DNA of 35,515 nt from a virus, in IMG/VR virus record IMGVR_UViG_3300030060_004182, positions 1-35,515 of that record. One strand, written 5' to 3'. Both the position numbers and the translations under genes were made by a program. The stretch's first letter is position 1. Each line of letters starts with the position of its first letter. Shown here in pieces: positions 16,860 to 34,529 of the stretch. The notes below the pieces were generated by a model. That model did not search any database. It worked only from the letters and a program-made list of their open reading frames with translations, and was not told the origin of the DNA.

Positions 16860-17585
16860 ATGCATCCAATAGTGATTAGTTTTTATAGTGATATTGAGGG
16901 ACACGACTATTATTCAAGAAATGCAGAGCGGTTAAAAAAACAACTAGACAATCTGGGTGTCCCTTATGATATTCAAGAGAAAAAGTCTCTAGGTGATTAC
17001 AGGTTAAATTGTCTCAGTAAACCTCAATACATTCTAGACAAGATGGAAAAGTTAGATCAACCCGTAATCTGGTTGGATATTGACAGCCGAGTTCACAAGA
17101 AACTCGCTGACTTTGAAAACATAGATCCTGATGTGGATATAGTTTTTTCCTCTTCGATGATGGAAGAGGTTTCTAAGTTTATGTCCGAACACGGACTCAC
17201 AGAAATTGAAGGACATTTACTACCAGCAATCATTAATGGGATGAAAGCGTCCCCTTTATATTTCGGAAACACCACTGGATCTAAGAACATATTATATGGG
17301 TGGATTCAGTCAACTAGGAATCAGATCGAAACTAATGATCCTAAGTTTGATCACGAACCTCTGTTTCCTATTCTTGGTAGGGCTATCCAAGATAAAACTA
17401 TAAATTCTAGGGTGGTGGGAATAGACTATTGCACATGGCCTGGAAATACAAAACGAAGCACCGTTATTACTATGGGACTCGCTGACTCCGAAACGAAGAA
17501 AGAAAAGTTGAGAGAGATGGGACTCGAAGAGGAGTTCATAGAGTGGCAGTCGGGTGGAGATAAAGAACATGTCTGGGATATCTAA
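16860..17585 (+). CDS. Nucleotide-diphospho-sugar transferase-like glycosyltransferase (GT-A)
   Basis: This encodes 241 residues and is the first gene of the glycan island. The N-terminus (HPIVISFYSDIEGHDYYSRN) and QPVIWLDIDSRVHKKL, with DID at 73-75, give the GT-A pattern in which a DxD motif after a hydrophobic strand binds the metal and sugar nucleotide. Further on, LYFGNTTGSKNILYGWI and FDHEPLFPILG are typical of the family of cytoplasmic nucleotide-diphospho-sugar transferases in which a Gln/Asp near the end shapes the acceptor site. GGAG at 16849-16852 precedes the ATG. The stop lies inside the next gene (17-base overlap). Donor sugar and acceptor cannot be read from sequence. Confidence 0.72.
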   Translation: MHPIVISFYSDIEGHDYYSRNAERLKKQLDNLGVPYDIQEKKSLGDYRLNCLSKPQYILDKMEKLDQPVIWLDIDSRVHKKLADFENIDPDVDIVFSSSMMEEVSKFMSEHGLTEIEGHLLPAIINGMKASPLYFGNTTGSKNILYGWIQSTRNQIETNDPKFDHEPLFPILGRAIQDKTINSRVVGIDYCTWPGNTKRSTVITMGLADSETKKEKLREMGLEEEFIEWQSGGDKEHVWDI

Positions 17586-18471
17586 AGTACTGGGGTTCGG
17601 ACTTCCGTTCAATCCAGATCAATCATCATGCTCACTAAGAGTCCCCGAAAATTTTAGATGGACATCGTGGAAAAATGGTAGTCCACCGGAGGATGATTGT
17701 AAGTTAGAAGTCTGGATGGATAGATCTATCCTCACCGGAATAAACCACAAAAAAGTTTGTGAAAATAAAGTAGCATGGATATGTGAGTCTAGTCACATAG
17801 TCCCAGACGTTGTAAACTTTATTCAAGAAAAAATGGATTATGTGTTAACCGAATACGATTTCATTTTTACTTGTGATAAATCCATACTACAATGTGAAAA
17901 CGAAAAAGTTTTATACTGTCCTCCGGGTAGCAACGTCGCATGGATATCTGAGGAAAAGCAAAAAATATATGATAAAACTAAACTATGCTCAATCATAGCC
18001 TCTAATAAGAAGATAACAAACGGACACATGCTAAGACATCACATAGCAGAAATGTTCAAAGGTTCAATTGACATATATGGAGGAGTTGCCGGATCACAAT
18101 CATTTGGACATGGTAATCTTGTTGACTCTTGGCATGACAAGACACAGGGACTTAAAGATTATATGTTTTCATTTACCATAGAAAACTCCTCATACGAAAC
18201 CTACTACACCGAGAAGATAATGGACTGTTTTGTTACAGGGACAGTCCCGATATATTGGGGCAGTCCAGACATAGGCGATTACTTCAATAAGGATGGTATT
18301 ATTATTTTAGATGACTCATTCGATATAAATATGTTGTCGGAAGAGTTGTATTATGATATGATGCCTGCTATAAAAGAAAACTATGAACTAGCGAGAAAGA
18401 CTAAGATAGCAGACGATATTTTATATGAATTAGTGGAGAGTAATAAGTATGAATCTATCAGCAAATATTAA
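17569..18471 (+). CDS. GT10-family glycosyltransferase (fucosyltransferase-like)
   Basis: This encodes 300 residues. The C-terminal half has the GT10 (alpha-1,3/4-fucosyltransferase) signature: YMFSFTIENSS with E205, then YYTEKIMDCF with E215-K216, then GTVPIYWGSPDI and a short DYFN end. In known GT10 enzymes this segment binds GDP-fucose. The N-terminal half is variable, as usual for the acceptor-binding domain of a GT-B fold. The phage also encodes gmd and fcl, which make GDP-fucose, so the donor assignment is plausible. ATG 17569 is preceded by GGGTGGAGA; the frame extends to a GTG at 17554 with less support. It overlaps both neighbours. No membrane anchor is present, so it acts in the cytoplasm. 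Confidence 0.82.
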   Translation: MSGISKVLGFGLPFNPDQSSCSLRVPENFRWTSWKNGSPPEDDCKLEVWMDRSILTGINHKKVCENKVAWICESSHIVPDVVNFIQEKMDYVLTEYDFIFTCDKSILQCENEKVLYCPPGSNVAWISEEKQKIYDKTKLCSIIASNKKITNGHMLRHHIAEMFKGSIDIYGGVAGSQSFGHGNLVDSWHDKTQGLKDYMFSFTIENSSYETYYTEKIMDCFVTGTVPIYWGSPDIGDYFNKDGIIILDDSFDINMLSEELYYDMMPAIKENYELARKTKIADDILYELVESNKYESISKY

Positions 18472-19954
18472 GAATGGATATTATCTTTTCGGTGACGGTA
18501 TTGACTTTCATGAGCCTGTAGAACTACATGTTTCTAGATTTGGTGACAACAATCGTCCGGGTGGTTCTCCTAGATTTGATAACCCGTCTGCGTTCAAGGT
18601 ATATCTCAACACAACAGAACCAGTTTCTTCAGCGAACAGGGAATCTGTTGCAAGTGTCATTGAGCATGGATCTAAGTATAATTTGGTTCTTACATCCGAC
18701 ACCGAGGTGTTAAATGAATTATCAAACGCTTCTTTTTTCCCATATGGTACTACTTGGTTAAATAAAAACAGAGGTAAGATTGATCACGAAGACGGACTCG
18801 GGGAGTACAGCCCGGAACTAGACTTACTGCATAAGAACAAAAAGTTTTCGGTTTCATTTCTAGGGACAAATCATCTACCCGGACCTGATGGTTATCGAAT
18901 GAGACATGAGTTATGGTCAAAGAAAGATGATATAAAAACTCCAACCGTTTTCTATAGCAGCACAAGACATCCAATGACACCACAGGGACAATTGCTACCC
19001 GAAGACAATAAAAAGTATCTGTTCAATTCTCAGTTTAGTATCGCTATTGAAAGCACAAGTGTTGAAAATTATTTTTCAGAGAAACTCATTGACTGCCTAA
19101 TAAGTAAGACTATCCCGATTTACTGGGGGTGTCCTAATATTGATGAGTTTTTTGATACGAGGGGAATGATAATTGTTGACAGTGTTGACGATATGATAAA
19201 GAAAATCAATCGATTAACAGAGAAGTCTTACAAAAAGAAACTAAAATATGTTGAGGAAAATTATGCACTCGCACATGAGTATGCAAGACCTTTTTCTGAT
19301 AGAGTTCGGGATGCGATTATGGAAAAACTACCAGCACCAATTGAAGAGGAAACAAAGGTAGAGGAGAGCAAGTACGCACTTAGTGTTGGTATAGTTTCTC
19401 TAAAGAAAAGAGAAGATCTCCTAAACAGACTTCTCTCCAGAATGAAAGATAAAACACCCCCAGAAATAATGGAGCGGGTTGAGGTTCTTATTAATGTTGA
19501 TGAGGGTGCTAAACCCGTAGGACAAAAAAGAAATGAGATTTTGTCAAGAGCAACTGGTAAGTTTATATGCTTCATTGATGATGACGATTTAGTTTCTGAA
19601 AACTATCTAGCAACTATGGTACACGCCATAGATAGCACACCCAAGTTAGACTGCATTGGTTTTACTGGTATGTTTTACAATGACGATCAACCAAAGATGA
19701 TGTTCAAACATGCTAATATGTACAGAGGTAATTATAAAGACTCAGAGGGAACACAGTATAGACCTGCAAATCATCTTAACCCAGTCAGAACAGAAATAGC
19801 GAAGAAGATAGGATTTCCAGAGAAGAACTTTGGAGAGGATGCGGACTATAGTGATAAGTTGCTAACTTCTGGTTTGATAAATGATGAAATAATAGTGGAT
19901 GGTGAAGTGATGTATCACTATCTGTTTAGCAGAAGTCAATCCCAAACACACTAG
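18449..19954 (+). CDS. Bifunctional GT10-like / GT2 glycosyltransferase fusion
   Basis: This encodes 501 residues. Residues 1-290 carry a GT10-like domain with FSIAIESTSVENYFSEKLID: E201, then E211-K212 at exactly the same 10-residue spacing as in the preceding gene. KTIPIYWGCPNIDEFFD follows. After a charged linker (PIEEETKVEESK) a GT2-type GT-A domain begins near residue 309 (YALSVGIVSLKKREDLLNRL), with GQKRNEILSRATGKF and the metal-binding DDDD at 377-380 in ICFIDDDDLVSENYL. A late FPEKNFGEDADYSDKL carries the likely catalytic acid. One polypeptide could thus add two sugars in succession. It overlaps the preceding GT10 gene by 23 bases and probably arose by duplication of that gene and fusion (inference). 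Confidence 0.82.
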   Translation: MNLSANIKNGYYLFGDGIDFHEPVELHVSRFGDNNRPGGSPRFDNPSAFKVYLNTTEPVSSANRESVASVIEHGSKYNLVLTSDTEVLNELSNASFFPYGTTWLNKNRGKIDHEDGLGEYSPELDLLHKNKKFSVSFLGTNHLPGPDGYRMRHELWSKKDDIKTPTVFYSSTRHPMTPQGQLLPEDNKKYLFNSQFSIAIESTSVENYFSEKLIDCLISKTIPIYWGCPNIDEFFDTRGMIIVDSVDDMIKKINRLTEKSYKKKLKYVEENYALAHEYARPFSDRVRDAIMEKLPAPIEEETKVEESKYALSVGIVSLKKREDLLNRLLSRMKDKTPPEIMERVEVLINVDEGAKPVGQKRNEILSRATGKFICFIDDDDLVSENYLATMVHAIDSTPKLDCIGFTGMFYNDDQPKMMFKHANMYRGNYKDSEGTQYRPANHLNPVRTEIAKKIGFPEKNFGEDADYSDKLLTSGLINDEIIVDGEVMYHYLFSRSQSQTH

Positions 19955-19964
19955 GTGATAGCAC

Positions 19965-20888
19965 ATGAGTGATAATGAAAAACTAAATCCATATGAACAA
20001 AGAGGTCCCTTAAACCACAGACAGTCCGCAGGTAAGAGGCTTATTAGTTTTTCCCTTTGGGGAGACAAACCAGAATATTGTTTGGGTGCGTTGGAAAATG
20101 CAAAGAGAGCAAAGGTTGTTTTCCCCGACTGGACTTGTAGATTCTATGTCTCGAAATCCGTTCCTAGAAAAATAATAAAACTAATACAGGAAGAGGGTAA
20201 CACTGAAGTCATCACTGTGAATTACGAGGATGACTGGAGAGGGACTTTGTGGAAACTGTTTGCAGTCGAAGATCGGAGCATTGATATTGTTCTGTTTAGA
20301 GATGTCAATTCCAGACTTTCAACTAGAGATGCCTTAGCGGTTGAAGATTGGATGAAAACAAATATACCATTACATATTATTAGAGATCATCCCTTTAATA
20401 CCCCCCACCCAATTCCTCCGGGTTCTTGGGGCATGGTGACTGAGCCTTTTAGGTGGATCGCTTCTGACGTTCGCAAGTATATGTCAAACTTCGGGACGGG
20501 AACTCTATCCCAAGAGGACATACTTGAGGGTAGGTTAGAACCAGAGAACGAAGAAATAGAAAAAAATATTGACATAAAGTACGTCAATAAATTGTATTTG
20601 AGTCATGGTTCACATGCTTTCATTCACGACTCCTTCCCCCACTTCAATCCGTGGTCTGGTAGAAATTTTCAGATTGGTAGGGTTAAAGAATTCAGTACGG
20701 GATTCCCAGTGGTTAGAAATGCCTATGGTGATCACGAAAACAAGTGGAACGATTTTGTTGGACAGAAATATAATCATAAGAATAAACCAAATGAAAAGTT
20801 AGCAAAAGAGTTAGAATCAGTAGAAAAGGATTTAGTGAAACTAAACAAATCAATTATGATAAATCAAAGGGAGTGGTTAGATGGGTAA
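19965..20888 (+). CDS. SLWG-type glycosyltransferase paralogue 1, altered DxD
   Basis: This encodes 307 residues and is the first of three tandem paralogues sharing S-x-SLWG near the N-terminus, a DW(T/I)xRxY segment, an (F/S)RDxxSR metal-site region and a GxWG turn. Here the DxD is changed: residues 112-117 read RDVNSR (D113, N115), where the two downstream copies read RDTDSR. GSWGMVTEPFRW replaces GGMWG. It has an extra ~24-residue hydrophilic N-terminus and a charged coiled C-terminus. ATG 19965 lies 10 bases after the previous stop, and the gene overlaps the next by 8 bases. It may be catalytically impaired or work as a partner of its neighbours (inference). The exact GT family is not one I can name. 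Confidence 0.68.
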   Translation: MSDNEKLNPYEQRGPLNHRQSAGKRLISFSLWGDKPEYCLGALENAKRAKVVFPDWTCRFYVSKSVPRKIIKLIQEEGNTEVITVNYEDDWRGTLWKLFAVEDRSIDIVLFRDVNSRLSTRDALAVEDWMKTNIPLHIIRDHPFNTPHPIPPGSWGMVTEPFRWIASDVRKYMSNFGTGTLSQEDILEGRLEPENEEIEKNIDIKYVNKLYLSHGSHAFIHDSFPHFNPWSGRNFQIGRVKEFSTGFPVVRNAYGDHENKWNDFVGQKYNHKNKPNEKLAKELESVEKDLVKLNKSIMINQREWLDG

Positions 20889-21816
20889 GAAAATAATATC
20901 AATGAGTCTATGGGGCGATGTTCCCATGTATACTGTAGGTGCAATTCGCAATGCAGAAATGAATCCAAACATCTTTGGATCAGACTGGATCACTAGAATT
21001 TATATTGGAAATGATGTTCCTAGCGAGGTATGCGAGAAACTAGTATCTCTACCCCAAACTGAATGTGTTTTTCTACCAAACGAAGATCCAAATTGGAATG
21101 GAATGTTCTGGAGATTTTGGGCGATCAGCGACGAAGATGTGGATCTAGTTATTTTCAGAGACACAGATTCTCGACCTAGTATTAGAGACTCCGCTGCTGT
21201 TCAAGAGTGGATCGAATCTGGCAAGATGATTCACCTCATGCGAGATCATCCCTATCACACGGAGCCTATCATGGGTGGTATGTGGGGATGTCATGCAAAA
21301 GAAACATACGAAAAATTAAAGTCGGAACTACCCGAATTACCGTTTAGCAACATGGAAGAATTAACAAAGAAGTGGTGGGAGCATCAGAAAGAAAAGTCAT
21401 ATAAGGTTCATGTTCTGGAACACGGTGGTGACTTCTGGACAAAAAGATATGCTCCATACGATATGATGACTGGGGAATCAAAGAAAGGTGTTGATCAACT
21501 CTTTTTGCGGATGATAGTTTACAAAGCATTTCAACAAGAGTTGTTTATTCACGATGCGTTCCCGATGTATAATTCATTTTCTGGAGTGTTTGATGAACAA
21601 AGATACTTCCAATGTGAGTCTGGAACTGGTATTAAGAAAGAAATGTCAACAGGTTTCCCAAGCATGAGACAGACTTGGGATGACACTTTCCCATCGAAGT
21701 GGCATGACTTCATCGGACAACAATGGGACGAGTTTGATGTTCCTAATGAGGAGTATGCACAGTTACTAAAACAAAGAGATGAGTGCATATACTCAGACTG
21801 GAAAAAGAAAGACTAG
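20881..21816 (+). CDS. SLWG-type glycosyltransferase paralogue 2
   Basis: This encodes 311 residues, beginning KKIISMSLWGDVPMYTVGAI, almost the same opening as paralogue 3. FWRFWAISDEDVDLVIFRDT leads into D94-T-D96-SR, an intact GT-A DxD site, then HLMRDHPYHTEPIMGGMWG. Its C-terminal half (QLFLRMIVYKAFQQELFIHD, then FIGQQWDEFD) parallels paralogue 1 (AFIHDSFP, FVGQKYN), so those two form the closer pair in that region. It overlaps the preceding gene by 8 bases. It is predicted to be a soluble, metal-dependent sugar transferase; donor and acceptor are unknown. Confidence 0.72.
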   Translation: MGKKIISMSLWGDVPMYTVGAIRNAEMNPNIFGSDWITRIYIGNDVPSEVCEKLVSLPQTECVFLPNEDPNWNGMFWRFWAISDEDVDLVIFRDTDSRPSIRDSAAVQEWIESGKMIHLMRDHPYHTEPIMGGMWGCHAKETYEKLKSELPELPFSNMEELTKKWWEHQKEKSYKVHVLEHGGDFWTKRYAPYDMMTGESKKGVDQLFLRMIVYKAFQQELFIHDAFPMYNSFSGVFDEQRYFQCESGTGIKKEMSTGFPSMRQTWDDTFPSKWHDFIGQQWDEFDVPNEEYAQLLKQRDECIYSDWKKKD

Positions 21817-21818
21817 AC

Positions 21819-22637
21819 ATGAAAAAAGTAATATCAATGAGTCTATGGGGAAATAACCATCACTATGTGTTGGGTGGTATTCTGAATGCAGACATAGCAC
21901 AGAAAGAATGGACTGACTGGACATGTAGATATTACATAGCACCGACTGTTCCGGAGTCCTCCATCAAGGAGTTAAACTCTAGAGATAACGTAGAAGTCAT
22001 AATGATGCATGAAGATGTTGGTTGGAACGGAATGTTCTGGAGATTTTATGCAGCAGGTGATCCAGAGGTGGATGTAATGATATCACGGGACACCGACTCT
22101 AGAATAAATCCAAGAGATAAAGCCGCAGTCGATCAGTGGCTTGACAGCGACAAGGACTTTCATATAATGAGAGATATGTGTCAGCATGGATGGAATATAT
22201 GTGGAGGTATGTGGGGTGCTAGAAACGGAGTAGTCTCGGATATAGTTGAGAGGATTAATGGATACTCTAGAAAGGAACATGATAATAATCACGGGATTGA
22301 TCAACACTTTCTAACAGATCTATATCCACAAATTTGGGAAAAGGCGTTCGTACACGATGACTGGTTCCCACACCAAAGGACACACGAACAAAAGCATCAA
22401 TTTCCTATCCCAAGATTGAGAGGAAATGGTTGGTGGAATACAGAGTTTCCAGAATGGCATGGAGGAATAGAGGATAACGCAGAGGAGTATCCACACTGGC
22501 AAGACGGAGCAGGACATTGTTTTCTTAAGTGTCCTGCTTGTGGAGTGTTCCATGACAATGAGTATATTGGTAAATTAAGAACCTGCACTACAGCAGAAAA
22601 AGAAAAGTATTCAGAAGTAATGAAAGATTTAACCTAA
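21819..22637 (+). CDS. SLWG-type glycosyltransferase paralogue 3 with C-terminal cysteine motif
   Basis: This encodes 272 residues from ATG 21819, two bases after the previous stop; the frame continues upstream inside paralogue 2 but without a ribosome site. KKVISMSLWGNNHHYVLGGI, then GMFWRFYAAGDPEVDVMISR and D91-T-D93-SR give the same GT-A core as paralogue 2, followed by HIMRDMCQHGWNICGGMWG. It differs at the C-terminus, where HCFLKCPACGVFHDNEYIG followed by LRTC offers four closely placed cysteines, suggesting a small zinc-binding site. The neighbouring copies lack this tail. It is probably an active transferase with a different acceptor (inference). Confidence 0.72.
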   Translation: MKKVISMSLWGNNHHYVLGGILNADIAQKEWTDWTCRYYIAPTVPESSIKELNSRDNVEVIMMHEDVGWNGMFWRFYAAGDPEVDVMISRDTDSRINPRDKAAVDQWLDSDKDFHIMRDMCQHGWNICGGMWGARNGVVSDIVERINGYSRKEHDNNHGIDQHFLTDLYPQIWEKAFVHDDWFPHQRTHEQKHQFPIPRLRGNGWWNTEFPEWHGGIEDNAEEYPHWQDGAGHCFLKCPACGVFHDNEYIGKLRTCTTAEKEKYSEVMKDLT

Positions 22638-22648
22638 AGGAGATCACA

Positions 22649-23314
22649 ATGGTACAACTAAAGAACTACGAGACATACTGGACTAACACTGATTGGGACG
22701 CTAAGATTGGTGGACTCGATAACTTCGGTCCCTATAGCGGCGGAGAAACAAATTGTCCATGTAGAAAAAATACAAGAAAGCATATCAAAAAACTAAAGGG
22801 TATCAAGACAATGCTTGATGTTGGATGTGGAGCAGCAGCAGTTGAGTACTGGGGTATCAAGGAAGAGTGTCCCAAGATTAAGTATACCGCTGTTGACATC
22901 ACTCCTAAGTTTGTAGAGCATCTTGTAAACACTCACGGAATCGACGCTGTTAATGCAAGTTCAGAGGATCTTCCCTTCGAGGATGACTCGTTTGATCTCG
23001 TTCATACCCGACACATGACTCTTCATATGGCTCAGTTTGAGAAGGCTTATGATGAAATGATTCGAGTTGCGAAGAAGTACGTTTTTGAAATCTACGCAAT
23101 GGGACCTATGGGTATGGATGGAATGGAAGGACCTGAGTACATTAGTCCACATCACGAAGCAAACACAACCCCGGATTATGTTTATGAGAATCGTTACTCA
23201 AAGGCTAGAATTGAAGACTACCTGAAGAACAACAAGAAGGTGAAGAGTTGGGAGTGGGTTGACGTAAGTGAATTTAAGAACAGCACATACCTCCTGAAGA
23301 TCAAAGTTTCATAA
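22649..23314 (+). CDS. Class I SAM-dependent methyltransferase
   Basis: This encodes 221 residues. TMLDVGCGAAAVEYWG (54-69) is motif I of Rossmann SAM methyltransferases; YTAVDITPKFVEHL holds the acidic residue that contacts the ribose; SEDLPFEDDSFDLVHTRHM is motif II/III of the small-molecule methyltransferase-11 type, and IRVAKKYVFEIYAMGPMG follows. An N-terminal CPC pair (NCPCRK, 36-41) is unusual. AAAGGAGATC upstream of the ATG is the best ribosome site of the island, and the codons are less A-rich than in adjacent genes, suggesting higher expression. Given its neighbours it may methylate a sugar or sugar nucleotide (inference); DNA or protein targets remain possible. Confidence 0.82.
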   Translation: MVQLKNYETYWTNTDWDAKIGGLDNFGPYSGGETNCPCRKNTRKHIKKLKGIKTMLDVGCGAAAVEYWGIKEECPKIKYTAVDITPKFVEHLVNTHGIDAVNASSEDLPFEDDSFDLVHTRHMTLHMAQFEKAYDEMIRVAKKYVFEIYAMGPMGMDGMEGPEYISPHHEANTTPDYVYENRYSKARIEDYLKNNKKVKSWEWVDVSEFKNSTYLLKIKVS

Positions 23315-23324
23315 GGAAACCTTA

Positions 23325-24182
23325 ATGAAAGTTTTAATCATACAAGAGAACGGTCATCACGACGCAAACAGAAACTATAGAGAATGTTTTTCTTTACAGA
23401 GGGCGTTTGTTAGTCTTGGACATGACTGTTCTGTTTGGGGGAATCTTCACCCAAATTATGATCAAACACCAGACTTCAACTCTTATGATATAATTATGGA
23501 TATCGAAAATAATAATCCAGAATGGATTCCATACGAATTGATAAGAGAGACAACTAAACCAATAAAGTATCTTTGGGCGATTGACGCTCATCTAATACCC
23601 CCTGATAAATTTGAACAGAGGTATCAGATGGGTAAGTTTCATAAACTTCTTCACTCCACTATAGATTATGTAAAAGACACGCATCATCTATGGTTCCCGA
23701 ATGGATACGATGATCAACTCATATCAAAGGGAACCACAGAGAAAAAAAGTTTCATGGGATATTGTGGATCTTTGGGTAGTCCCGAGAGAACAGATCTGGT
23801 AAACTACATTTCTGATGAGTTTCAGGCTAAGATCGATATTAATGTTTTAGGTAATGATATGGTAAAAGCCATACAGACATATGTAATACACTTCAACAAG
23901 AATATAAAAAATGATCTTAACTACAGAAACTTTGAAACCATAGGTTGCGGAACTGTTCTTCTGTCTGATAAAAATAAACAGTATGAACTGCTTGGATTTG
24001 TCGATGGTGAAAATTGCATACTGTACGATAACAAGGAAGACATGAAAAGTAAGGTAATGTACTACGCAAACAATGTGGAAAAATTAAGAGAGATAGCAGA
24101 GAACGGATATCAGTTATCGAAACAACACACCTATCTTGATAGAGTACAAAAGTTGCTAGGCTTAACGGAGGATATCATATGA
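23325..24182 (+). CDS. GT-B glycosyltransferase (group 1, CgeB-like)
   Basis: This encodes 285 residues. The N-terminal MKVLIIQENGHHDANRNYRE, with a later LGHDCSVWGN, looks like the first Rossmann half of a GT-B enzyme. The C-terminal segment NDLNYRNFETIGCGTVLLSD, then LLGFVDGENCILYDN, is the donor-binding half of the glycosyl-transferase group 1 / CgeB-like type, in which 'R.FE...CG...L' and 'F..G....Y.' contact the nucleotide sugar. It ends with a helical tail and overlaps the next gene (ATGA at 24179-24182). It is soluble with no membrane segment. The donor sugar is unknown. Confidence 0.78.
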   Translation: MKVLIIQENGHHDANRNYRECFSLQRAFVSLGHDCSVWGNLHPNYDQTPDFNSYDIIMDIENNNPEWIPYELIRETTKPIKYLWAIDAHLIPPDKFEQRYQMGKFHKLLHSTIDYVKDTHHLWFPNGYDDQLISKGTTEKKSFMGYCGSLGSPERTDLVNYISDEFQAKIDINVLGNDMVKAIQTYVIHFNKNIKNDLNYRNFETIGCGTVLLSDKNKQYELLGFVDGENCILYDNKEDMKSKVMYYANNVEKLREIAENGYQLSKQHTYLDRVQKLLGLTEDII

Positions 24183-26815: not shown

Positions 26816-26817
26816 TA

Positions 26818-27801
26818 ATGAAAACCTTGGAACAAGCATTCCCAAATCTAATCATCCGAAAAAAACCAGAGGATATCAAAGAACTAAATGATATGCCTGG
26901 TAGTACCATTATGATTTATCATCATACCGGGATGGGTGATCATATTTCTCTAAGTTCTCTGGTGAGAAGAATTGCAAAAGACGGAAATTATGAAAAGGTA
27001 TATTTGATTTGCTTCGAGTCTAACAATGCAAATGTTTGTAAACTGTACCAAGATTCAGAAGTTATAGAAATCTGCACCATTCCAAACAGAGGTGATCACA
27101 ACACCATCATAAAAAAATGGGTTGCGAAAAAGAATCCAAGCAAATTCTTACAGTTAGGTTTTGATGACTGGGGTAGGTTAGACGGATATAAGGGTTTGTA
27201 TGTTGACACATTGATGTACGCTGCTGCTGGATATCCAGTGAAAACTAGATGGGATGATTACTACTTTCAGAGAGATGAAGAGGCAGAAGAAGCCGCTTTT
27301 AAGAAAGTAAACCCAGACAACAGACGGTACATTTTCATACACGATCCGGGTGACGAACCACAGCATCAATGGAGAGGTAGAATTACAGATTCTTTGGTTC
27401 GTAGACTATCAACGTCGGGTGGACCTGCATCTGGTGGACAAAGATGGCAGTGGATTGATGGAGATGAAGATACTCTAATCATACGAAACAATCCATCAGT
27501 TCCTCTCATGCATATGGGTAAAATCTTAGAGAATGCATGTGAACTTCACATGATGGAGAGTTCTCTTAGGTGTTTTGCAGAGGGACTTGACACTAGTAGA
27601 GTACAGCATTATCATCATCATTACATCCGAGATCATTACAACATAGATCATGGAACTCGTAAAGTATGGATGGTTGTTGAGGAGTATGATCCAGAGGTAA
27701 AACTTAGATTACTCAACGGTCCAGCACAGTTAGATCACTTTGATAAGTATGGAACAATTTGCAAAAACCTTCATGGGTTCTATTGTCCGACTTGGTTCTA
27801 A
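26818..27801 (+). CDS. Probable GT-B glycosyltransferase (GT9-like N-terminus)
   Basis: This encodes 327 residues from ATG 26818, chosen because GGAG (26806-26809) is 8 bases upstream; ATG 26812, which overlaps the previous stop, is too close to it. The N-terminal GSTIMIYHHTGMGDHISLSS followed by LVRRIAKDGNYEKVYLICF resembles the 'GLGDHI....LVR.I......VYLF' opening of heptosyltransferase-like GT-B proteins. A later ILENACELHMMESSLRCFAE matches the 'A..IH..ESS......' donor-side helix of that group. Between them is YIFIHDPGDEP. It is probably a soluble sugar transferase. A histidine-rich stretch (HYHHHYIRDHYNIDHG) is notable. Confidence 0.65.
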   Translation: MKTLEQAFPNLIIRKKPEDIKELNDMPGSTIMIYHHTGMGDHISLSSLVRRIAKDGNYEKVYLICFESNNANVCKLYQDSEVIEICTIPNRGDHNTIIKKWVAKKNPSKFLQLGFDDWGRLDGYKGLYVDTLMYAAAGYPVKTRWDDYYFQRDEEAEEAAFKKVNPDNRRYIFIHDPGDEPQHQWRGRITDSLVRRLSTSGGPASGGQRWQWIDGDEDTLIIRNNPSVPLMHMGKILENACELHMMESSLRCFAEGLDTSRVQHYHHHYIRDHYNIDHGTRKVWMVVEEYDPEVKLRLLNGPAQLDHFDKYGTICKNLHGFYCPTWF

Positions 27802-27810
27802 GGAGAAGTC

Positions 27811-28821
27811 ATGTTAGATATTAGTTTCAAGAAAAACCCAGAACTGTACTCTGATCTAGATAGTTGTTTAGATTATCTCAAGGGTGTTCACGCATCAAAG
27901 GATGACTATGAGTTTCCCGAGGAAGTTGTTCCCTTTCATTTGTTCATGTCTCATGGATGCAATAATGTTATTTTGCTTGAAACTATAAAGTCTTATCTTG
28001 CTACACAGGATCTTGAAAAAACCAAACTAATTTTGTGGTGTGAGAACTTAGACGATAGTAACAACCCTCTCCTAGAACCATACAGAGAATATATTTGGTT
28101 CAAGTCATATGATGCACACAAAGAGGCAAAGGGAACTCCCCTAGAGGGAAATGCAAAACTAGATGTCTTCCAACCTCTCTACTATGCACAGAGTGATCTG
28201 TTTAGAATTCTAATCACATACAAGTATGGTGGTGTGTGGATGGACATGGATGTTGTTTTTATAAACGACTTCAAGCCTATTTTAGATCAAGAGTTTTGTT
28301 ATGAGTGGGGTGGTTATCAACCACATTTAGACGATGAGTGCAAGGCTTTGGGAACCGACAGGTATTCTAAGTATGGAATGTCCACGGGAGCGTTGGGTAT
28401 ACGCAAGGCTGGTAATATGTTACCGATGGATACTTTCGCACAACATTTAATGCATCAGTTGATAATTTGTCCGTACATGGATCCCGCAACTCACTGGGGT
28501 AAAGAATTATTCGGGAAGGTATGGTCTACATGGGGACATAAGTTCACTGTCTTCCCCTCCATCTTTTTTAATACCGAGTGGGGACTGGAGTCAACCAAGA
28601 TGAGAGGGGAAGAGTTGATTAGTAGAGTTGCAACATACTTTGACGAACCGATAGATGACGAGAGACAACTGTTTGAATACGCTCCGTTCTCTTGGCATTA
28701 TCATAACTCAGGTGGACACGCAAAGAAAGCAATCACTACGGGAGAAGTACATCCAAGATCTAAATTTGGTATACTTAGGGAGAGAACAAATAAACTTCTG
28801 AAGGAAAGGGGAATTGTATGA
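27811..28821 (+). CDS. GT32-like glycosyltransferase (DXD sugar-binding region)
   Basis: This encodes 336 residues. QSDLFRILITYKYGGVWMDM (128-147), containing D145-M-D147, is the hallmark 'SD..R...L...GG.Y.D.D' of the Gly_transf_sug DXD family (GT32-like, the yeast Och1 and capsular transferases type). The later GMSTGALGIRKAG resembles the 'n......kg...' acceptor loop, and the C-terminal FSWHYHNSGGHA resembles the family's terminal 'A.H...GSW' region. AAGGAG precedes the ATG, and the stop overlaps the epimerase gene (ATGA at 28818-28821). It is predicted to be metal-dependent and cytoplasmic, using a nucleotide sugar whose identity is not readable. Confidence 0.8.
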   Translation: MLDISFKKNPELYSDLDSCLDYLKGVHASKDDYEFPEEVVPFHLFMSHGCNNVILLETIKSYLATQDLEKTKLILWCENLDDSNNPLLEPYREYIWFKSYDAHKEAKGTPLEGNAKLDVFQPLYYAQSDLFRILITYKYGGVWMDMDVVFINDFKPILDQEFCYEWGGYQPHLDDECKALGTDRYSKYGMSTGALGIRKAGNMLPMDTFAQHLMHQLIICPYMDPATHWGKELFGKVWSTWGHKFTVFPSIFFNTEWGLESTKMRGEELISRVATYFDEPIDDERQLFEYAPFSWHYHNSGGHAKKAITTGEVHPRSKFGILRERTNKLLKERGIV

Positions 28822-29729
28822 AAAAAGTTTTAGTTACTGGTGGTGCGGGGTTTATTGGATCCCATATTGTTGATAGGCTACTAGAAGAAGGTAGTCATGT
28901 AATTGTTGTTGATAACGAATCAACAGATTCACATGAAACATTCAACTGGAATAACGATGCTGAAAATTATTTGGTAGACATAAATGACTATGAAACCCTG
29001 AACCCTCTAATGAAAGATGTAGATGAGGTTTTTCATCTAGCAGCAGAGGCTAGAATTCAACCTGCTATTCAAAACCCGATACTTGCAGTCACCACTAATG
29101 TTGTCGGAACTTGTAATGTTCTTCAGTCTGCTAGAGAGAACTCTGTAAAGAGAGTTGTATATTCTTCCACTTCCTCTGCGTATGGTTTCAATGATATCCC
29201 TAGTGTAGAGACTATGAAAAAAGATTGTCTGAATCCATATTCTGTTTCAAAAACAGCCGGAGAAGAATTGTGTCAGATGTATTACAACTTATTCGGATTA
29301 GAGACAGTTACATTTAGATACTTCAACGTATATGGCGAAAGACAACCAACCAGAGGACAGTACGCTCCAGTTATTGGTTTGTTTCAAAGACAGGTTAACG
29401 ACAGTGAACCCATGACAATTGTTGGTGACGGTATGCAAAGACGAGACTTCACTCATGTCAGTGATGTCGTTGAGGCTAATATTAAGGCTATGAGAACTGA
29501 GAACAAAGACGCTCTTGGTGAAATATTTAACATCGGAACTGAAACGAATTATAACATTCATGATCTCGTTGAAATGTTGACACCGCACGATCCAGTCGAG
29601 GGAGTTGATTATGTACACATCCCAGAGAGAGTTGGTGAAGTAAAAGAGTCATTATCCGATTGCACAAAAGCAAAGAAGTTGCTAGAATGGGAAGCGAAGA
29701 TTAAACTTGGAGATTGGGTACATGCATGA
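28818..29729 (+). CDS. NAD-dependent nucleotide-sugar epimerase/dehydratase (GalE-like extended SDR)
   Basis: This encodes 303 residues. VTGGAGFIGSHIVDRLLEEG (6-25) is the NAD-binding GxxGxxG. VFHLAAEARIQPAIQNP, YSSTSSAYG (115-123) and Y141-SVS-K145 form the active-site set of UDP-glucose 4-epimerase-like enzymes. FRYFNVYGERQPTRGQYAPV and GDGMQRRDFTHVSDVV are the expected later motifs. The substrate is not fixed by the sequence: UDP-glucose/galactose, UDP-N-acetyl sugars or a UDP-uronate are all possible. The next gene is a UDP-sugar-dehydrogenase-like protein, so epimerisation of a UDP-sugar or uronate is a reasonable inference. It overlaps the next gene by 8 bases. Confidence 0.85.
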   Translation: MKKVLVTGGAGFIGSHIVDRLLEEGSHVIVVDNESTDSHETFNWNNDAENYLVDINDYETLNPLMKDVDEVFHLAAEARIQPAIQNPILAVTTNVVGTCNVLQSARENSVKRVVYSSTSSAYGFNDIPSVETMKKDCLNPYSVSKTAGEELCQMYYNLFGLETVTFRYFNVYGERQPTRGQYAPVIGLFQRQVNDSEPMTIVGDGMQRRDFTHVSDVVEANIKAMRTENKDALGEIFNIGTETNYNIHDLVEMLTPHDPVEGVDYVHIPERVGEVKESLSDCTKAKKLLEWEAKIKLGDWVHA

Positions 29730-30630
29730 TACTAGAATTGGTGTAATTGGAAACGGTTTTGTTGGTGGTGCAGTCATCAAAGCATTCACAGAATATTGTG
29801 ATGTAAAGTTCTATGATAAGAATGATGAGAAGTCGCAGAACACTCTAGAGGATGTGATATCATCTAGTGATATTGTTTTTGTTTGCTTACCAACACCAAT
29901 GGAAAACGCAGAAGGTGGGAAGGCAGATCTCAGTATAATCAAAGATACTTTTCATAAGATCAATCAAATTGATCCTCTTCTTCACAACGAACCAACAAAT
30001 ACAATTTATGTCATAAAGTCTACTGTTCCGGTTGGAACCACTCAGGAACTATCTGATCTATACCAAACAAATAGAATCATACACTCTCCTGAATTCTTAA
30101 CCGCTCGTTGTGCAAACATAGATTTTATAACTGCGACTAGACATGTGATAGGACTTGCAAAAATGATGGGGTGTGGAAAAGGAGCCGCTCCTTTTGTGTT
30201 CGGTAATCATCTGACTGAACTTTTTGAGGAAAGATTTCCAGGCTGTAATGTAATCACAACAAGCAGCAGTGAGTCTGAATTTATTAAGTATGCTGCTAAC
30301 TGCTTCTTCGCATCAAAGGTAATGATTTTTAACGAGATGAAATTGCTATCTGATAAGTTAGATTTAAATTGGGACAATATAATGTCGGGAGTTATGACTG
30401 ACGGAAGGATTGGAGTGTCTCATCATCAAGTTCCCGGACACGATGGAGATAGAGGATTTGGTGGTTATTGTTTTCCAAAGGACATAAACTCATTCATAAA
30501 TACTATGGAAGAGAATGATGTGGATCCTCTCATATTCAAAGCAGTGTGGGATCAGAATAAAAACGTGAGAAATAATTGGGATTGGGTGAACTCAGAGTCA
30601 TCCGTTGTGAGAGAAACAAATGAACATTAA
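29722..30630 (+). CDS. UDP-glucose/GDP-mannose dehydrogenase-like protein, short C-terminus
   Basis: This encodes 302 residues; UDP-glucose 6-dehydrogenases usually have 388-450. RIGVIGNGFVGGAVIKAFTE is the N-terminal NAD-binding site, FVCLPTPM and YVIKSTVPVGTT are family motifs, and SPEFLTAR is the S-P-E-F loop. SEFIKYAANCFFASKVMIFN holds the catalytic lysine/asparagine helix, and GFGGYCFPKD holds the catalytic cysteine (C250). The protein ends about 50 residues later, so most of the C-terminal UDP-sugar-binding domain is missing. Catalysis may need another partner, or the function may have changed. ATG 29722 follows GGAG (29709-29712); the frame extends to TTG 29707. Confidence 0.82.
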   Translation: MHDTRIGVIGNGFVGGAVIKAFTEYCDVKFYDKNDEKSQNTLEDVISSSDIVFVCLPTPMENAEGGKADLSIIKDTFHKINQIDPLLHNEPTNTIYVIKSTVPVGTTQELSDLYQTNRIIHSPEFLTARCANIDFITATRHVIGLAKMMGCGKGAAPFVFGNHLTELFEERFPGCNVITTSSSESEFIKYAANCFFASKVMIFNEMKLLSDKLDLNWDNIMSGVMTDGRIGVSHHQVPGHDGDRGFGGYCFPKDINSFINTMEENDVDPLIFKAVWDQNKNVRNNWDWVNSESSVVRETNEH

Positions 30631-31405
30631 ATTTCACAGAGTTGTATTAGCAACAGATGATAGTCCAGAAAATTTAGAGTTCTGGCCGTTTGTCGCTTCC
30701 GCTTGGAACACTTGGTTCCCCGAGGTATCAGTGGAACTTGCTTACATCACAGAAAAGGATTTTAACGATCCAAAGGTAAAGCACATGTCAAGGTTCGGAA
30801 ACCTGCACCTGTTTCGTCCGAATGACGTTACTACTCAGATTCCAACGGAAAGTCTTCTCTCTGCATGTCAATTACTATTAACCACTCTAATAGGTGATGG
30901 TAGTGTATGTCTTCTCAGCAATATAAATTATTTCCCAATGTCAAGACAGGGTTATAAAAACGCAACCGATGACGTAGAAAACTCTAGGGTTCTAATTTTA
31001 GATAACAATGAATTGGTTGTTAACTCTGACTATCTACGAAGAGTGCTGAACCCAGAAAAGAAAACAGCAGGTGAAATTCTATCTTCATGGAAAGATCAAA
31101 TGAACCCGTATAACCCAGATATGTTCTTTCGTTCATTCATAAACCGAGGGGCAAAATTGAATTCAATTCCATCTAACATGACAACAATAGATGCTAGTAA
31201 AGATCAGGGATTAGAATTATCTAAGTTGTGGCAGTATGAGTATGGTAGGTGTGTGGTTCCAAAAGTTCCCTTTAGTTTTATTCAAAACAATCTAAAACTT
31301 CTCATAGATTTTGTTGGACACAACGAAGTTAAGTTTGAGGGTGTAGAGAAACACCCAAAGCCTCATTGGATTGGTGTTCAACCACCAGAAAAACAAGAGG
31401 TTTGA
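30620..31405 (+). CDS. GT-A-like protein with lost DxD (paralogue B of 25946-26815)
   Basis: This encodes 261 residues. FHRVVLATDDSPENLEFWPF, WFPEVSVELAYIT and CLLSNINYFPMSRQGY align with paralogue A (FDTVVLATNDNPKYSDFVPY, FFPEVKIVLAYIT, CFIADIDTVPLSRDYY). The metal-binding D-I-D is replaced by N101-I-N103, and the middle is shortened. A conventional GT-A metal site is therefore absent. The reading frame is intact and overlaps the upstream gene by 11 bases and abuts the next, so it is kept as a gene. It may be a non-catalytic subunit, or a transferase that works without metal (inference). Confidence 0.65.
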   Translation: MNIKFHRVVLATDDSPENLEFWPFVASAWNTWFPEVSVELAYITEKDFNDPKVKHMSRFGNLHLFRPNDVTTQIPTESLLSACQLLLTTLIGDGSVCLLSNINYFPMSRQGYKNATDDVENSRVLILDNNELVVNSDYLRRVLNPEKKTAGEILSSWKDQMNPYNPDMFFRSFINRGAKLNSIPSNMTTIDASKDQGLELSKLWQYEYGRCVVPKVPFSFIQNNLKLLIDFVGHNEVKFEGVEKHPKPHWIGVQPPEKQEV

Positions 31406-31406
31406 T

Positions 31407-31802
31407 ATGCGTATTGTTACAAGTCCGACAAGCAAACAGGTTAAAGAGTTGTTCGAGAACAACGATTGTAAAACTTTTAGATACTTCAATAAAAGACCTT
31501 TTGATTGCATAGAAGATCATTTGTTTACGGTTTTGATTTACGAAAAGGATAAACCGATTGGGTACGGACACCTAGATCCAGAGGGAAATGTCACTTGGTT
31601 AGGAATCTATCTTTCACCTAACTATAGAGGAAAAGGTTACGCTAAAATTATTATGGGAATTTTGTTGTCACACGCTAAAGATAATATACAATTAACAGTA
31701 GATAAAAATAATACAAGTGCAGTTTCTTTGTATGACAATTTTGGATTTGTAATAACAGATGAGACTGAAACGTATTACATAATGGAGTTTGAAAATGTCT
31801 GA
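31407..31802 (+). CDS. GNAT-family N-acetyltransferase
   Basis: This encodes 131 residues from ATG 31407, two bases after the previous stop and preceded by AAGAGG. Acetyl-CoA binding is shown by WLGIYLSPNYRGKGYAKIIM with R74-G-K-G-Y (the R/Q-x-x-G-x-G/A motif A), then the motif B-like VDKNNTSAVSLYDNFGFVI. It transfers an acetyl group from acetyl-CoA to an amine. Next to a DegT aminotransferase two genes downstream, the likely substrate is an amino-sugar nucleotide, giving an N-acetylated sugar (inference). It overlaps the next gene by 8 bases. Confidence 0.85.
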   Translation: MRIVTSPTSKQVKELFENNDCKTFRYFNKRPFDCIEDHLFTVLIYEKDKPIGYGHLDPEGNVTWLGIYLSPNYRGKGYAKIIMGILLSHAKDNIQLTVDKNNTSAVSLYDNFGFVITDETETYYIMEFENV

Positions 31803-32103
31803 TACTTTAGGTTCGTTGATTGATAAGTTATGCACGGTTGATCTTAAGATGTGGAACAACCAAGAGATTTTATATGAGATCCGACGAATGGACTTTGATG
31901 AATTCAAGGACAAGTACTTCTCAAGCGAAGATGGTGCGGAGAAACTATGGGAGTGTCTGAAGAAGTGCTGTGACTTGAATGTTCAGAGAAATCAATTCAT
32001 GGATGAGATCGATCAGAAAGTCGTTGAGATTGTCAGTGACGCAGTTTCTGGTGAAGACTTAGATTCAGGAAAGCATATTCAGAGAAAACACAAGACTTAT
32101 TGA
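31795..32103 (+). CDS. Small DUF4254-like protein
   Basis: This encodes 102 residues from ATG 31795 (GGAG at 31784-31787); a TTG at 31789 is less likely. It is helical and charged, with LIDKLCTVDLKMWNNQEILY and LNVQRNQFMDEIDQKVVEIV. The 'L...D..MW..QE' opening and the 'N.QRN...DEID' end resemble DUF4254, a small family often found in phage and bacterial sugar clusters without known function. The match is from memory of the pattern. It lies between the acetyltransferase and the aminotransferase, suggesting a link to amino-sugar formation. Confidence 0.65.
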   Translation: MSDTLGSLIDKLCTVDLKMWNNQEILYEIRRMDFDEFKDKYFSSEDGAEKLWECLKKCCDLNVQRNQFMDEIDQKVVEIVSDAVSGEDLDSGKHIQRKHKTY

Positions 32104-32110
32104 GTGATAC

Positions 32111-33187
32111 ATGATACGAGTTTATGAACCATACATTACAAACAAGTCTAGAATATATGTAAACGAAACAATATCCTCTGGGTGGATATCGTGGCACGGA
32201 ACATATTCGGAAAAGGTAGCAGAGTCCCTGTCCAATTTGGTTGGGACTGACTACTGTTTGTTAGTTAGTAGTGGTACAACAGGGATGCATATTGCATCTT
32301 GTGTTCTCAAAAAGTTTTATCCGAAAGTAAAAAGACTTGTCTTCCCCAGTGCAGCCTACATAGCAGCATACTCCCCTTTCATGTTTGACGGTGATGAATT
32401 TGATATCGTCCTAGAAGACTTGAGCAGGGATACATGGAATCCTTCCTATGACATAGAAGCGGGAGAGGATACTGCATTTGTCATAACACACAATGTGGGG
32501 AACACTGTAAATGTTCTGGATCTAAAGAAGAGATACCCCGACAGTATTTTTATAGAGGATAATTGTGAGGGGTTTATGGGTGAGTATGATAACTCCCCGA
32601 CTGGATCTGCCGCTGATATTTCTGTCTGCTCCTTCTTTGCAAACAAAACTATAACTTGTGGAGAGGGTGGTGCGGTTTTCCTCAAGGACAAGGATCAGTA
32701 TGAATACGCAATGAAGATACGAGGACAGGGACAGTCAGAAAAAAGATTCATACACGACGAGATGGGATACAACTACAGACTAACTAACGTACAGGCTGCT
32801 CTCTTGTACGGACAATTGGAAGAGTTGCAAATCATCAAAGAGAACAAACGAAGAATATTCAACAGATATAGAAAAAATCTAGACGGCGTTTTCAAGATCC
32901 CCACCGGAGATCCAAACACAAAAAGTTCAGAGTGGATGTTTGGTGTTGAATCAAGAAGAACTTTTGATGAGGTTTCTCATCAGTTATCCAAGAGTGAGAT
33001 AGAATGTAGACCTATGTTTTATCCTTATTCTTATCATGGATGGCTACCAAAACCAATTTCTGGTTGTGAAAACAATGCTAAATACTTATCAGAGAGATGT
33101 GTCATATTACCATCATCTCCAAACTTAGACGATTTTCAGGTAGACTATATCTGTGAGAACTTAATTAAAGGTGAACCCAATGAGTAA
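32111..33187 (+). CDS. DegT/DnrJ/EryC1-type sugar aminotransferase (perosamine-synthase-like)
   Basis: This encodes 358 residues. This is a PLP-dependent enzyme that puts an amino group on a 4- or 3-keto nucleotide sugar using glutamate. SSGTTGMHIA (53-62) binds the PLP phosphate; FIEDNCEGFMG (148-157) supplies D150 for the PLP ring nitrogen; SFFANKTITCGEGG (174-187) holds the Schiff-base lysine K179; MGYNYRLTNVQAALLYGQLE is the family 'G.NYR...IQAA....QL'. All catalytic residues are kept. With gmd in the same window, GDP-4-keto-6-deoxymannose is a plausible substrate, giving GDP-perosamine, but other keto-sugars are possible. It overlaps the next gene by 8 bases. Confidence 0.88.
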   Translation: MIRVYEPYITNKSRIYVNETISSGWISWHGTYSEKVAESLSNLVGTDYCLLVSSGTTGMHIASCVLKKFYPKVKRLVFPSAAYIAAYSPFMFDGDEFDIVLEDLSRDTWNPSYDIEAGEDTAFVITHNVGNTVNVLDLKKRYPDSIFIEDNCEGFMGEYDNSPTGSAADISVCSFFANKTITCGEGGAVFLKDKDQYEYAMKIRGQGQSEKRFIHDEMGYNYRLTNVQAALLYGQLEELQIIKENKRRIFNRYRKNLDGVFKIPTGDPNTKSSEWMFGVESRRTFDEVSHQLSKSEIECRPMFYPYSYHGWLPKPISGCENNAKYLSERCVILPSSPNLDDFQVDYICENLIKGEPNE

Positions 33188-34505
33188 AGTGAAGAAAGTA
33201 AAAAGATCAGCATCGGTTACTTTGTGTATGATTGTAAAAGATGAATCTCATATTATCAAAGAGTGTCTGGAATCTATGCTTCCATACATTGATCGCTATG
33301 ACATTACAGACACAGGATCTACGGACGGAACTCCAGAACTAATCAAAGAGTTCATGGATGAGCATGATATTCCGGGAGAGGTATATCTTTCCGACTGGAA
33401 GGGGTTCGGAGACTCTGGTGGTAAGATAGGATCAAGAACTGAATCTCTGAGAAACTGTGATGGTAAGGCAGACTACGCATGGGTTATCGATGCAGATGAT
33501 GTAGTGACTGGTAATTTTCAGTATCCTCCTGTCATGGATCAGGATTGTTACACTCTTCGTATAGGGAGAGGAGAAGACTTCACTTGGTGGAGGAATCAAA
33601 TCTTCAAGACCGGTATGGGATGGCATTATGTTGGTGTTCTTCATGAATATGCAAACTGTCCCAAGGTTCCAGATCAACAAAAGATTCTTAAGATTCTTGG
33701 CGATTATAAAATCGAAGCGAGGACTGAGGGTGCAAGAAACGTAGGAATCACACCCGTTGAAAAGTATTCAAGAGACGCTGAACATCTAGAAGAGGCACTC
33801 AAGGATGAGCCAGACAACTCTCGTTATCAGTTCTATCTCGCACAATCTTATTTTGACTCACAGCAGTTTGAAAAGTCTCTAGAGGCTTACTCGAAGAGAG
33901 CAGAGATGGGAGGGTGGCCTGAAGAAGTATTCTACTCACTCTATCGGGTTGGTATGATTAAGGCTATATTAGACAAGCCTTGGGAAGAAATCCAACAAGC
34001 GTTTTTGGACTCATGGGAATCTCGTCCAACCAGAGCAGAACCATTGTATCAGATCGCTAGATGCTACAGACAGATACACAATAGACCTGTACTCGCATAT
34101 ATGTACGCAAGAATGGCTTTAGACATCCCGTATCCACATGATGATATTCTGTTTGTTCAGGACGATGTTTATAAGTTCGGAGTGTTAGATGAGGTTGGAG
34201 CCTCCGCATACTACGCAGGGAAACCACATATAGGATTCCAAGCGTGTAAGAGACTGGTGGAGGAGGATTTGATCCCAGAGGAACACAAGTCTAGAGTTGT
34301 TACCAATCTAAAGCAGTACGAGCAGGTGTTACTCCAAATTCATGCTCAACAAGCACAGATGGAGGTTGAAAAAAAGCAACAAGAGGAAATGATGAAGCAG
34401 AAAGAAAAAGAACAAAAACGAGAAGAGAAGAAACAGAAAGCCATGGAACCGAAAAAGAGTACCAAAACCTCTTCTAGAAAAGGTTACAAGAAAAGAAAGG
34501 CATAA
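33180..34505 (+). CDS. GT2 glycosyltransferase with TPR-like and basic coiled C-terminus
   Basis: This encodes 441 residues. SVTLCMIVKDESHIIKECLE, then DITDTGSTDGTPELIKEF and WVIDADD with D104-A-D106 are the GT2 (SunS/TPR-glycosyltransferase) catalytic core. The middle has tetratricopeptide-like helices (EHLEEALKDEPDNSRYQFYL, AQSYFDSQQFEKSLEAY). The last ~70 residues are a Q/E/K-rich coiled stretch ending in basic low complexity (KKSTKTSSRKGYKKRKA). TPR-GT2 enzymes can glycosylate proteins, and the tail could bind DNA, capsid or another protein (inference). ATG 33180 is preceded by AAAGGTG. This is the last gene of the island before a late-promoter-like site and structural genes. Confidence 0.85.
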   Translation: MSKVKKVKRSASVTLCMIVKDESHIIKECLESMLPYIDRYDITDTGSTDGTPELIKEFMDEHDIPGEVYLSDWKGFGDSGGKIGSRTESLRNCDGKADYAWVIDADDVVTGNFQYPPVMDQDCYTLRIGRGEDFTWWRNQIFKTGMGWHYVGVLHEYANCPKVPDQQKILKILGDYKIEARTEGARNVGITPVEKYSRDAEHLEEALKDEPDNSRYQFYLAQSYFDSQQFEKSLEAYSKRAEMGGWPEEVFYSLYRVGMIKAILDKPWEEIQQAFLDSWESRPTRAEPLYQIARCYRQIHNRPVLAYMYARMALDIPYPHDDILFVQDDVYKFGVLDEVGASAYYAGKPHIGFQACKRLVEEDLIPEEHKSRVVTNLKQYEQVLLQIHAQQAQMEVEKKQQEEMMKQKEKEQKREEKKQKAMEPKKSTKTSSRKGYKKRKA

Positions 34506-34508
34506 ATA
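34501..34508 (+). promoter_or_regulatory. Late-promoter-like site (CATAAATA)
   Basis: CATAAATA at 34501-34508 differs from the T4 late consensus TATAAATA only in the first base, a variation that I recall from T4-like marine phages. It overlaps the end of the glycan island's last gene and lies 21 bases before the next start, at the point where structural genes resume. A short inverted repeat (TACC 34507-34510, GGTA 34516-34519) follows. Confidence 0.55.
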
Positions 34509-34529
34509 CCTATAAGGTAGGGAACTAAT

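Follow-up and report, generated by a model that had tools for sequence, protein, structure and literature searches.

A variable sugar-gene island ending in a candidate protein-glycosylating enzyme beside tail-fibre genes of an uncultured T4-like phage

The role of sugar genes in marine T4-like phages has been debated since 2005-2010, with proposals ranging from change of the host lipopolysaccharide (LPS) to stuffer DNA. The sugar clusters of T4-like cyanophages (P-SSM2, S-SSM7 and others) lie near hli03 or phoH and their function is unknown (PMC3037559), and a pelagimyophage cluster between VrlC and gp14 has been explained as changing the host O-chain (PMC7029224). Of the enzymes that attach sugars to protein, GmaR puts N-acetylglucosamine (GlcNAc) on flagellin, whose recognition is attributed to the TPR domain of the enzyme (PMC9638930). 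Here we describe a sugar-gene island at positions 16860-34505 of IMG/VR record IMGVR_UViG_3300030060_004182, a 35.5 kb fragment (35,515 nucleotides, all of which was analysed and is referred to as the window) of an uncultured, apparently marine T4-like phage. The island begins just after regA and ends in i21, the gene of a GT2+TPR glycosyltransferase that adjoins two tail genes. On balance, and with moderate confidence, we favour the reading that the phage encodes a protein-glycosylation locus for its own tail fibre, working in the cytoplasm, and that the island is the variable portion of this locus. All features below lie on the + strand, all gene functions were assigned by similarity, and the starts of open reading frames (ORFs) are mechanical start codons.

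The i21 enzyme and the adjoining fibre genes

The gene i21 (33171..34505) forms the constant right edge of the island and is proposed, from profile, model and neighbourhood, to encode a protein-priming enzyme. Its product is a soluble protein with an N-terminal GT2 domain (PF00535, E 5e-10) and a C-terminal TPR or TPR-like domain (TPR_16, E 4e-4; helices 195-364 in the model), and the catalytic motifs IVKDE, TGSTD and IDADD, the last of DxD type, show no variation in 16 homologues. When a profile of the 16 homologues was searched against the PDB, GmaR (E 3e-14) and SunS and ThuS (E 5e-7 to 2e-5) outranked all other glycosyltransferases, the rest of the matches being designed or natural TPR proteins. 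The structural model (predicted local distance difference test, pLDDT, 86) aligns with SunS at Z 19.3 over 271 residues and with ThuS at Z 18.1 over 279, with root-mean-square deviations above 5 A because the domains move. Single-domain matches give Z 15-17, and the two-domain match to SunS and ThuS is therefore the informative part; the glycosyltransferase domain of GmaR is not in the VIA-align list for i21, an absence that says little. SunS and ThuS are peptide S-glycosyltransferases that act on peptide cysteine, and four Firmicute homologues of i21 have flagellin genes within 6 kb. As judged from profile and model, i21 belongs with the GT2+TPR enzymes of the GmaR/SunS kind, and this likeness together with the flagellin neighbours leads us to predict that it is suited to initiating a glycan on protein.

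Homologues of i21 at 36-45% identity (L145-L188) are common in mycobacteria, sometimes in several copies, and occur also in Chlamydiae. No cultured marine phage or cyanophage in the collection matched i21, the eight matching records being jumbo phages and short Listeria phage records.

Downstream of i21 lie g34530 (34530..34937; phrog_1084, E 2.6e-15), which is probably structural, and a collagen-like tail-fibre gene (35079..35513; phrog_6320 and other tail-fibre families, E down to 3.9e-21) that is cut by the window end; both products are candidate substrates. The i21 profile found 80 contigs, 75 of them with enough sequence for the neighbourhood to be read; the contigs in this and the other sets used here are related and fragmentary, and counts from them are not independent. 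With at least eight Gly-X-Y triplets taken as collagen-like, the gene following i21 within 100 nucleotides (nt) is g34530 in 42 of the 75 and collagen-like in 22, giving a fibre-type gene in 64/75. The 77% DNA identity to the nearest i21 relatives likewise is confined to i21 and the start of g34530 (33180-34661) and does not cover the cassette of sugar genes to its left. Since the constant i21 looks like an enzyme that adds the first sugar to protein and adjoins tail-fibre genes, the fibre is probably decorated by the phage, and we infer that g34530, the collagen-like fibre or both are the i21 substrate.

Motif timing is consistent with this arrangement. A late-promoter-like CATAAATA (34501..34508) precedes the fibre gene block, 29 nt upstream of the g34530 start, and in 28 of 63 contigs the 90 nt upstream of the fibre-type gene contain NATAAATA, for the most part between -29 and -34, as compared with 2.3% expected from base frequency and 10% for other ORFs. 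The signal for a late promoter of i21 itself is too weak (14/75 against 10% in the control), and exact TATAAATA is seen four times in the window with 2.1 expected, which is not significant.

A variable cassette between regA and i21

The left half of the window has, by PHROGs matches, the order gp19, uvsY, uvsW, gp55, gp47, gp46, gp45, fcl-like, gmd, gp44, GroES-like, gp62 and regA, which contains the T4-like core order uvsY-uvsW-gp55-gp47-gp46-gp45-gp44-gp62-regA. The top isolate match of gp44 is to Methylophilales phage Melnitz (59%), followed by pelagiphage Mosig and cyanophages, and a nucleotide search of annotated phages gave no matches. A cyanophage identity was dropped, as no photosystem gene was found in 15 contigs. 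The left boundary of the island is regA (16433..16846; phrog_242, E 1.6e-53), and 14 nt after it a continuous + strand run of 21 ORFs (i01-i21) begins. An initial annotation of the window had recognised a + strand glycan island here, with 18 genes coupled mostly by short overlaps; the run is indeed unbroken from 16860 to 34505 and about 15 of its 20 junctions overlap (range, 35-nt overlap to 11-nt gap), but the gene count has to be raised to 21. The G+C content of the island (0.36-0.41) is at the level of the core genes, and composition is unchanged across it.

An independent sister contig from another assembly, IMGVR_3300030060_003925, has the same gene order as the window, with 80-94% identity in core genes (regA 94%) and 51-73% amino-acid identity in i01-i06; its genes beyond i06 are quite different. 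A search by gp44 gave 80 further contigs, of which about 20 contain regA-i01-i02, mostly with i03, i05 and i06, and from the two comparisons the left flank of the island is seen to be conserved and faster-evolving than the core, with the middle replaced. An assembly chimera was rejected, since both the regA-i01 and the i21-g34530 junction are seen again in independent contigs.

With some exceptions, 12 compared contigs share the order regA, 7 to ~33 sugar genes, i21, g34530, collagen fibre and other tail genes, and after these dUTPase, a MazG-like gene, gp43 and recA. The content from regA to i21 is different in 12/12 and is replaced wholesale between lineages, with other cassettes, whose sequences were read by eye, containing a UDP-GlcNAc 2-epimerase and a CMP-sugar synthetase (two contigs) or an aldolase/kinase with a nucleotidyltransferase (three contigs). 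Six contigs that form one clade of the i21 tree (100/99 support) have just 19-32 nt from regA to i21, which is followed by g34530, and carry no cassette; loss and an ancestral state are both possible for this clade. Across the clade of the window the slot can therefore be written as regA, 0 to ~33 variable sugar genes, i21, g34530/collagen fibre, dUTPase and gp43. That a gene of the protein-glycosylating type is joined to fibre genes even where other sugar genes are absent makes one answer to the long-standing debate directly testable.

Such strong variation in content is also what would be seen if the genes were mainly drifting cargo or stuffer for headful packaging and shared no pathway, as was floated for the cyanophage LPS clusters (PMC3037559). 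However, the frames are intact and coupled and retain their catalytic motifs, i01-i02-i03-i05-i06 and i21 hold their order in many contigs, and the cassette-less clade retains i21 and fibre without any cargo, and we regard this explanation as very unlikely.

The initial annotation also pointed out that T4 has its DNA polymerase gene 43 at this site. The isolates Melnitz, Mosig and Bellamy do have gp43 0-3 genes after regA, whereas in the clade of the window it lies downstream of the island, 0.8-8 kb past i21; its loss was rejected because the gene is found there in relatives, and it has been displaced. The gp43 start is ~5.4 kb past i21 in the nearest relative, L252, and from this spacing it is expected ~4 kb beyond the window end. 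In L285, L292, L296 and L299, which belong to one i21 clade, gp43 comes 0.8 kb after i21, two of the four have g34530-like genes ~9 kb downstream, past gp43, and relocation of the fibre block is the apparent reason.

A candidate pathway and the destination of its product

The reading that we favour can be set out as a series of steps, each of which is a prediction. The TPR domain of i21 would hold g34530 and/or the collagen-like fibre while i21 adds the first sugar, and the remaining transferases would extend the chain while it is in the cytoplasm, ahead of virion assembly or in the course of it. The precursors would come in part from two genes upstream of the island, between gp45 and gp44 (12868-14756), where they had been reported: an fcl-like GDP-L-fucose synthase gene (12868..13767; NCBIfam GDPFucSynFcl, E 1.1e-61, 209 bits, with the curated cut-off of 500 not reached) and gmd, for GDP-mannose 4,6-dehydratase (13767..14756; TIGR01472, 412.3 bits against a cut-off of 415). 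Together these would make GDP-fucose, and L-fucose would be used by the GT10 fucosyltransferase-like i02 (17554..18471; PF00852, E 3.7e-9) and by i03 (18449..19954; phrog_14775 glycosyltransferase), in which a GT10-like N-terminus (PF00852, E 1.3e-4) is fused to a GT2 C-terminus (PF00535, E 1.4e-7). A hexose or uronic acid would be supplied by i15, a nucleoside diphosphate (NDP)-sugar epimerase/dehydratase (28818..29729; PF01370, E 4.4e-60; galE/LegB-like below cut-offs), and i16, a short NDP-sugar dehydrogenase (29707..30630; PF00984, PF03721; GGYCFPKD site present) that lacks the C-terminal substrate-binding domain and is not a local truncation, because short forms of ~280 amino acids recur in relatives. 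An N-acylated, possibly perosamine-like amino sugar could be made from the gmd product, which by homology would fit as the substrate of i20, a perosamine-synthase-like DegT sugar aminotransferase (32111..33187; PF01041, E 6e-52; PDB matches 7b0m, E 1e-28, then the perosamine synthetases 3bn1 and 3dr7), followed by the GNAT N-acetyltransferase i18 (31371..31802; PF00583, E 8.4e-16) and perhaps by the WbqC-family i11 (25401..25949; PF08889, E 5.3e-29). Finally, the class I S-adenosylmethionine methyltransferase i07 (22649..23314; PF08241, E 6.8e-14) and the FkbM-type methyltransferase i10 (24724..25404; PF05050, E 3.6e-5) could O- or N-methylate the chain.

With the GT-B type i08 (23325..24182; PF13524, E 1.8e-18) and the DXD-sugar, GT32-like i14 (27811..28821; PF04488, E 3e-10), the glycosyltransferase classes that the initial annotation had named are present (GT10 in i02 and i03, GT2 in i03 and i21), as are its sugar-nucleotide enzymes and modifiers (i15, i16, i20, i18, i11, i07, i10). 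Its nearly self-contained pathway stands for GDP-fucose, with gmd, fcl and two GT10 enzymes, but GDP-mannose and UDP-sugars would have to come from the host.

Where the sugars end up is the point on which explanations differ. The island could instead block superinfection by altering, early in infection, the glycan on the host surface (LPS core or O-chain), as PMC7029224 proposes for the GT8-rich clusters of related pelagimyophages. LPS typically involves GT10 enzymes and sugars that are of perosamine type or carry methyl groups, lipid A-core could be modified by cytoplasmic enzymes ahead of its transfer by host MsbA, and regA-side genes would precede late genes in expression. Yet no flippase, sugar polymerase, ligase, lipid-carrier initiator or polytopic membrane protein was found: a simple hydropathy scan, which covered 365 proteins from 12 regions, gave no protein exceeding three hydrophobic segments, and none at all in the window set, and neither a Wzx-type flippase (PF01943) nor the lipid-carrier initiator Bac_transf (PF02397) was detected in 15 contigs, with positive controls. 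A chain built by phage genes on undecaprenyl phosphate is unlikely for want of a polytopic protein, flippase or lipid-carrier initiator, none of which is needed for cytoplasmic chain growth on protein. The invariant enzyme i21 is moreover of the protein-glycosylating kind and tracks fibre genes, not host-takeover genes. Host enzymes could supply the missing functions, and for this reason a change of host LPS keeps a place among the explanations; we consider it unlikely.

Glycosylation of modified phage DNA bases, another option of the initial annotation, is known from T4-like phages, and the island sits within the replication operon beside gp44, gp62 and regA. Against this, the thymidylate synthase/dCMP hydroxymethylase fold (PF00303) is absent from 15 contigs that reach 157 kb in length, with controls positive in nine genomes and the window itself being a fragment, and the C5 cytosine methylase family (PF00145) is absent from the same 15, again with positive controls; PF12851 (Tet_JBP) gave no match but no positive control either, so that this says little. 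The DNA methylase of the window is of the N6/N4 type and i21 resembles protein glycosyltransferases, and decoration of DNA is in our judgement most unlikely. Of the three uses first suggested, virion glycosylation is thus best supported, by the kind of enzyme i21 is and by its fibre neighbours, with the DNA option disfavoured and the host surface still a candidate for the middle genes.

Several observations nevertheless weigh against glycosylation of the fibre. The sequence match to GmaR covers the glycosyltransferase domain only, and the relatives of i21 are diverse, many of them, such as the mycobacterial ones, functionally untested. A different gene follows i21 in 11 of the 75 contigs, G005-type genomes have the fibre pair past gp43, and the neighbourhood of i21 and fibre is in any case no proof of substrate; host LPS, and not the fibre, could be the target of the middle transferases. 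Ser/Thr is also scarce in the collagen repeats near the window (6.8% in L223), leaving Thr-rich, BclA-like O-glycosylation tracts in the triplets unsupported there, while in other contigs Thr is frequent at Y.

If the fibre is the target, its glycan could alter receptor contact, protect the fibres or act as a decoy for competitors, and fibre specificity would be set by sugar chemistry in addition to protein sequence. Given the differences in the cassette, the fibre glycan would vary from one lineage to the next. More tentatively, and at somewhat less than even chances, this widespread T4-like clade may have a serotype-like locus, in which a fixed GT2+TPR primer and collagen-like fibre are combined with a swappable regA-gp43 cassette and the virion glycan varies as O-antigens do.

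The other island genes are less readily placed. The conserved first gene, i01 (16860..17585), which follows regA in ~20 contigs, belongs to a family without known function and had no Pfam or PDB match in sequence searches; it has a D-x-D motif (DID) with D73 and D75 invariant in a 16-sequence alignment and is probably a glycosyltransferase. By alignment i04 (19965..20888), i05 (20881..21816) and i06 (21783..22637) are paralogues, and Pfam and PDB sequence searches with them gave no match. The AlphaFold2 model of i06 (pLDDT 82) matches the GT-A enzymes KfiA (Z 14.2) and glycogenin (Z 14.1) in VIA-align, with its conserved RDTDSR motif apparently at the DxD-site position; a GT-A fold is predicted for all three, although a shared fold alone is no proof of function. 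The copy number of these tandem paralogues (19965-22637) differs among contigs, and the family has no Pfam model. Weak similarity to deacetylases (DUF2334; PF10096, E 0.0043, below cut-off) is seen for i09 (24179..24727). No family could be assigned to i12 (25946..26815), which forms one family in relatives with i17 (30620..31405; 57% identical homologue in L252), and i13 (26812..27801) has no Pfam match and recurs in the islands of relatives (L252, L140, L051). The small protein i19 (31789..32103) adjoins i20 and has a 62% homologue in L088, where the i19-i20 pair is conserved.

Outside the island, 7615-9201 encodes a protein of 528 amino acids that ends in an N6/N4 DNA methylase domain (TSPPY motif) and whose N-terminal half is uncharacterised; conservation of the protein in the sister contig is 92%. 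Next to it, 9205-10299 encodes a phage glutamine synthetase of GlnII type (NCBIfam NF041605, E 9e-110, below the curated cut-off), which also adjoins the methylase gene in many relatives and is, by similarity, a possible nitrogen-metabolism gene. The GroES-like (Cpn10) gene between gp44 and gp62 (15672-16004) may be the counterpart of T4 gp31, and relatives have other inserts at that position.

Comparison with known systems

The island resembles the cyanophage LPS clusters (P-SSM2, S-SSM7, S-SKS1) in its large glycosyltransferase set with gmd, fcl-like and epimerase genes. Unlike those clusters it fills the regA-gp43 slot, with i21 and the fibre pair at its end; in addition, psbA-type genes are absent from the 15 contigs tested and i21 is unmatched in cultured cyanophages. 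With the pelagimyophage host recognition cluster it shares hypervariability and glycosyltransferases together with tail fibres (PMC7029224), but that cluster belongs to the structural module, whereas the island lies in the replication operon and has a constant GT2+TPR gene. Bacterial O-antigen and capsule loci have a similar swappable centre, fixed flanks and deoxy- and amino-sugar genes; unlike them, the island has shown no Wzx, Wzy, ligase or lipid-linked start. Mycobacteriophages, according to work cited in PMC12619734, place glycans on their own virion proteins (capsid, tail tube), a precedent that concerns, as cited there, another type of phage and another part of the virion.

The closest likeness of i21 itself is to Listeria GmaR and Bacillus SunS/ThuS, with which it shares domain order, catalytic motifs and fold (PMC9638930). 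It differs from them in having a Lys-rich C-terminal tail and no antirepressor domain, in adjoining phage fibre genes, and in that its substrate is a predicted one. A literature search, with subscription papers mostly outside it, turned up no previous description of a GT2+TPR enzyme linked to phage fibres, nor of the regA-gp43 position, the fixed GT2+TPR/fibre unit or the cassette-less clade. The suggestion of an undescribed system therefore needs to be narrowed: the presence and size of sugar clusters in T4-like marine phages were already known (PMC3037559, PMC7029224), whereas the location, the fixed unit of protein glycosyltransferase and fibre, and the swappable cassette appear to be new.

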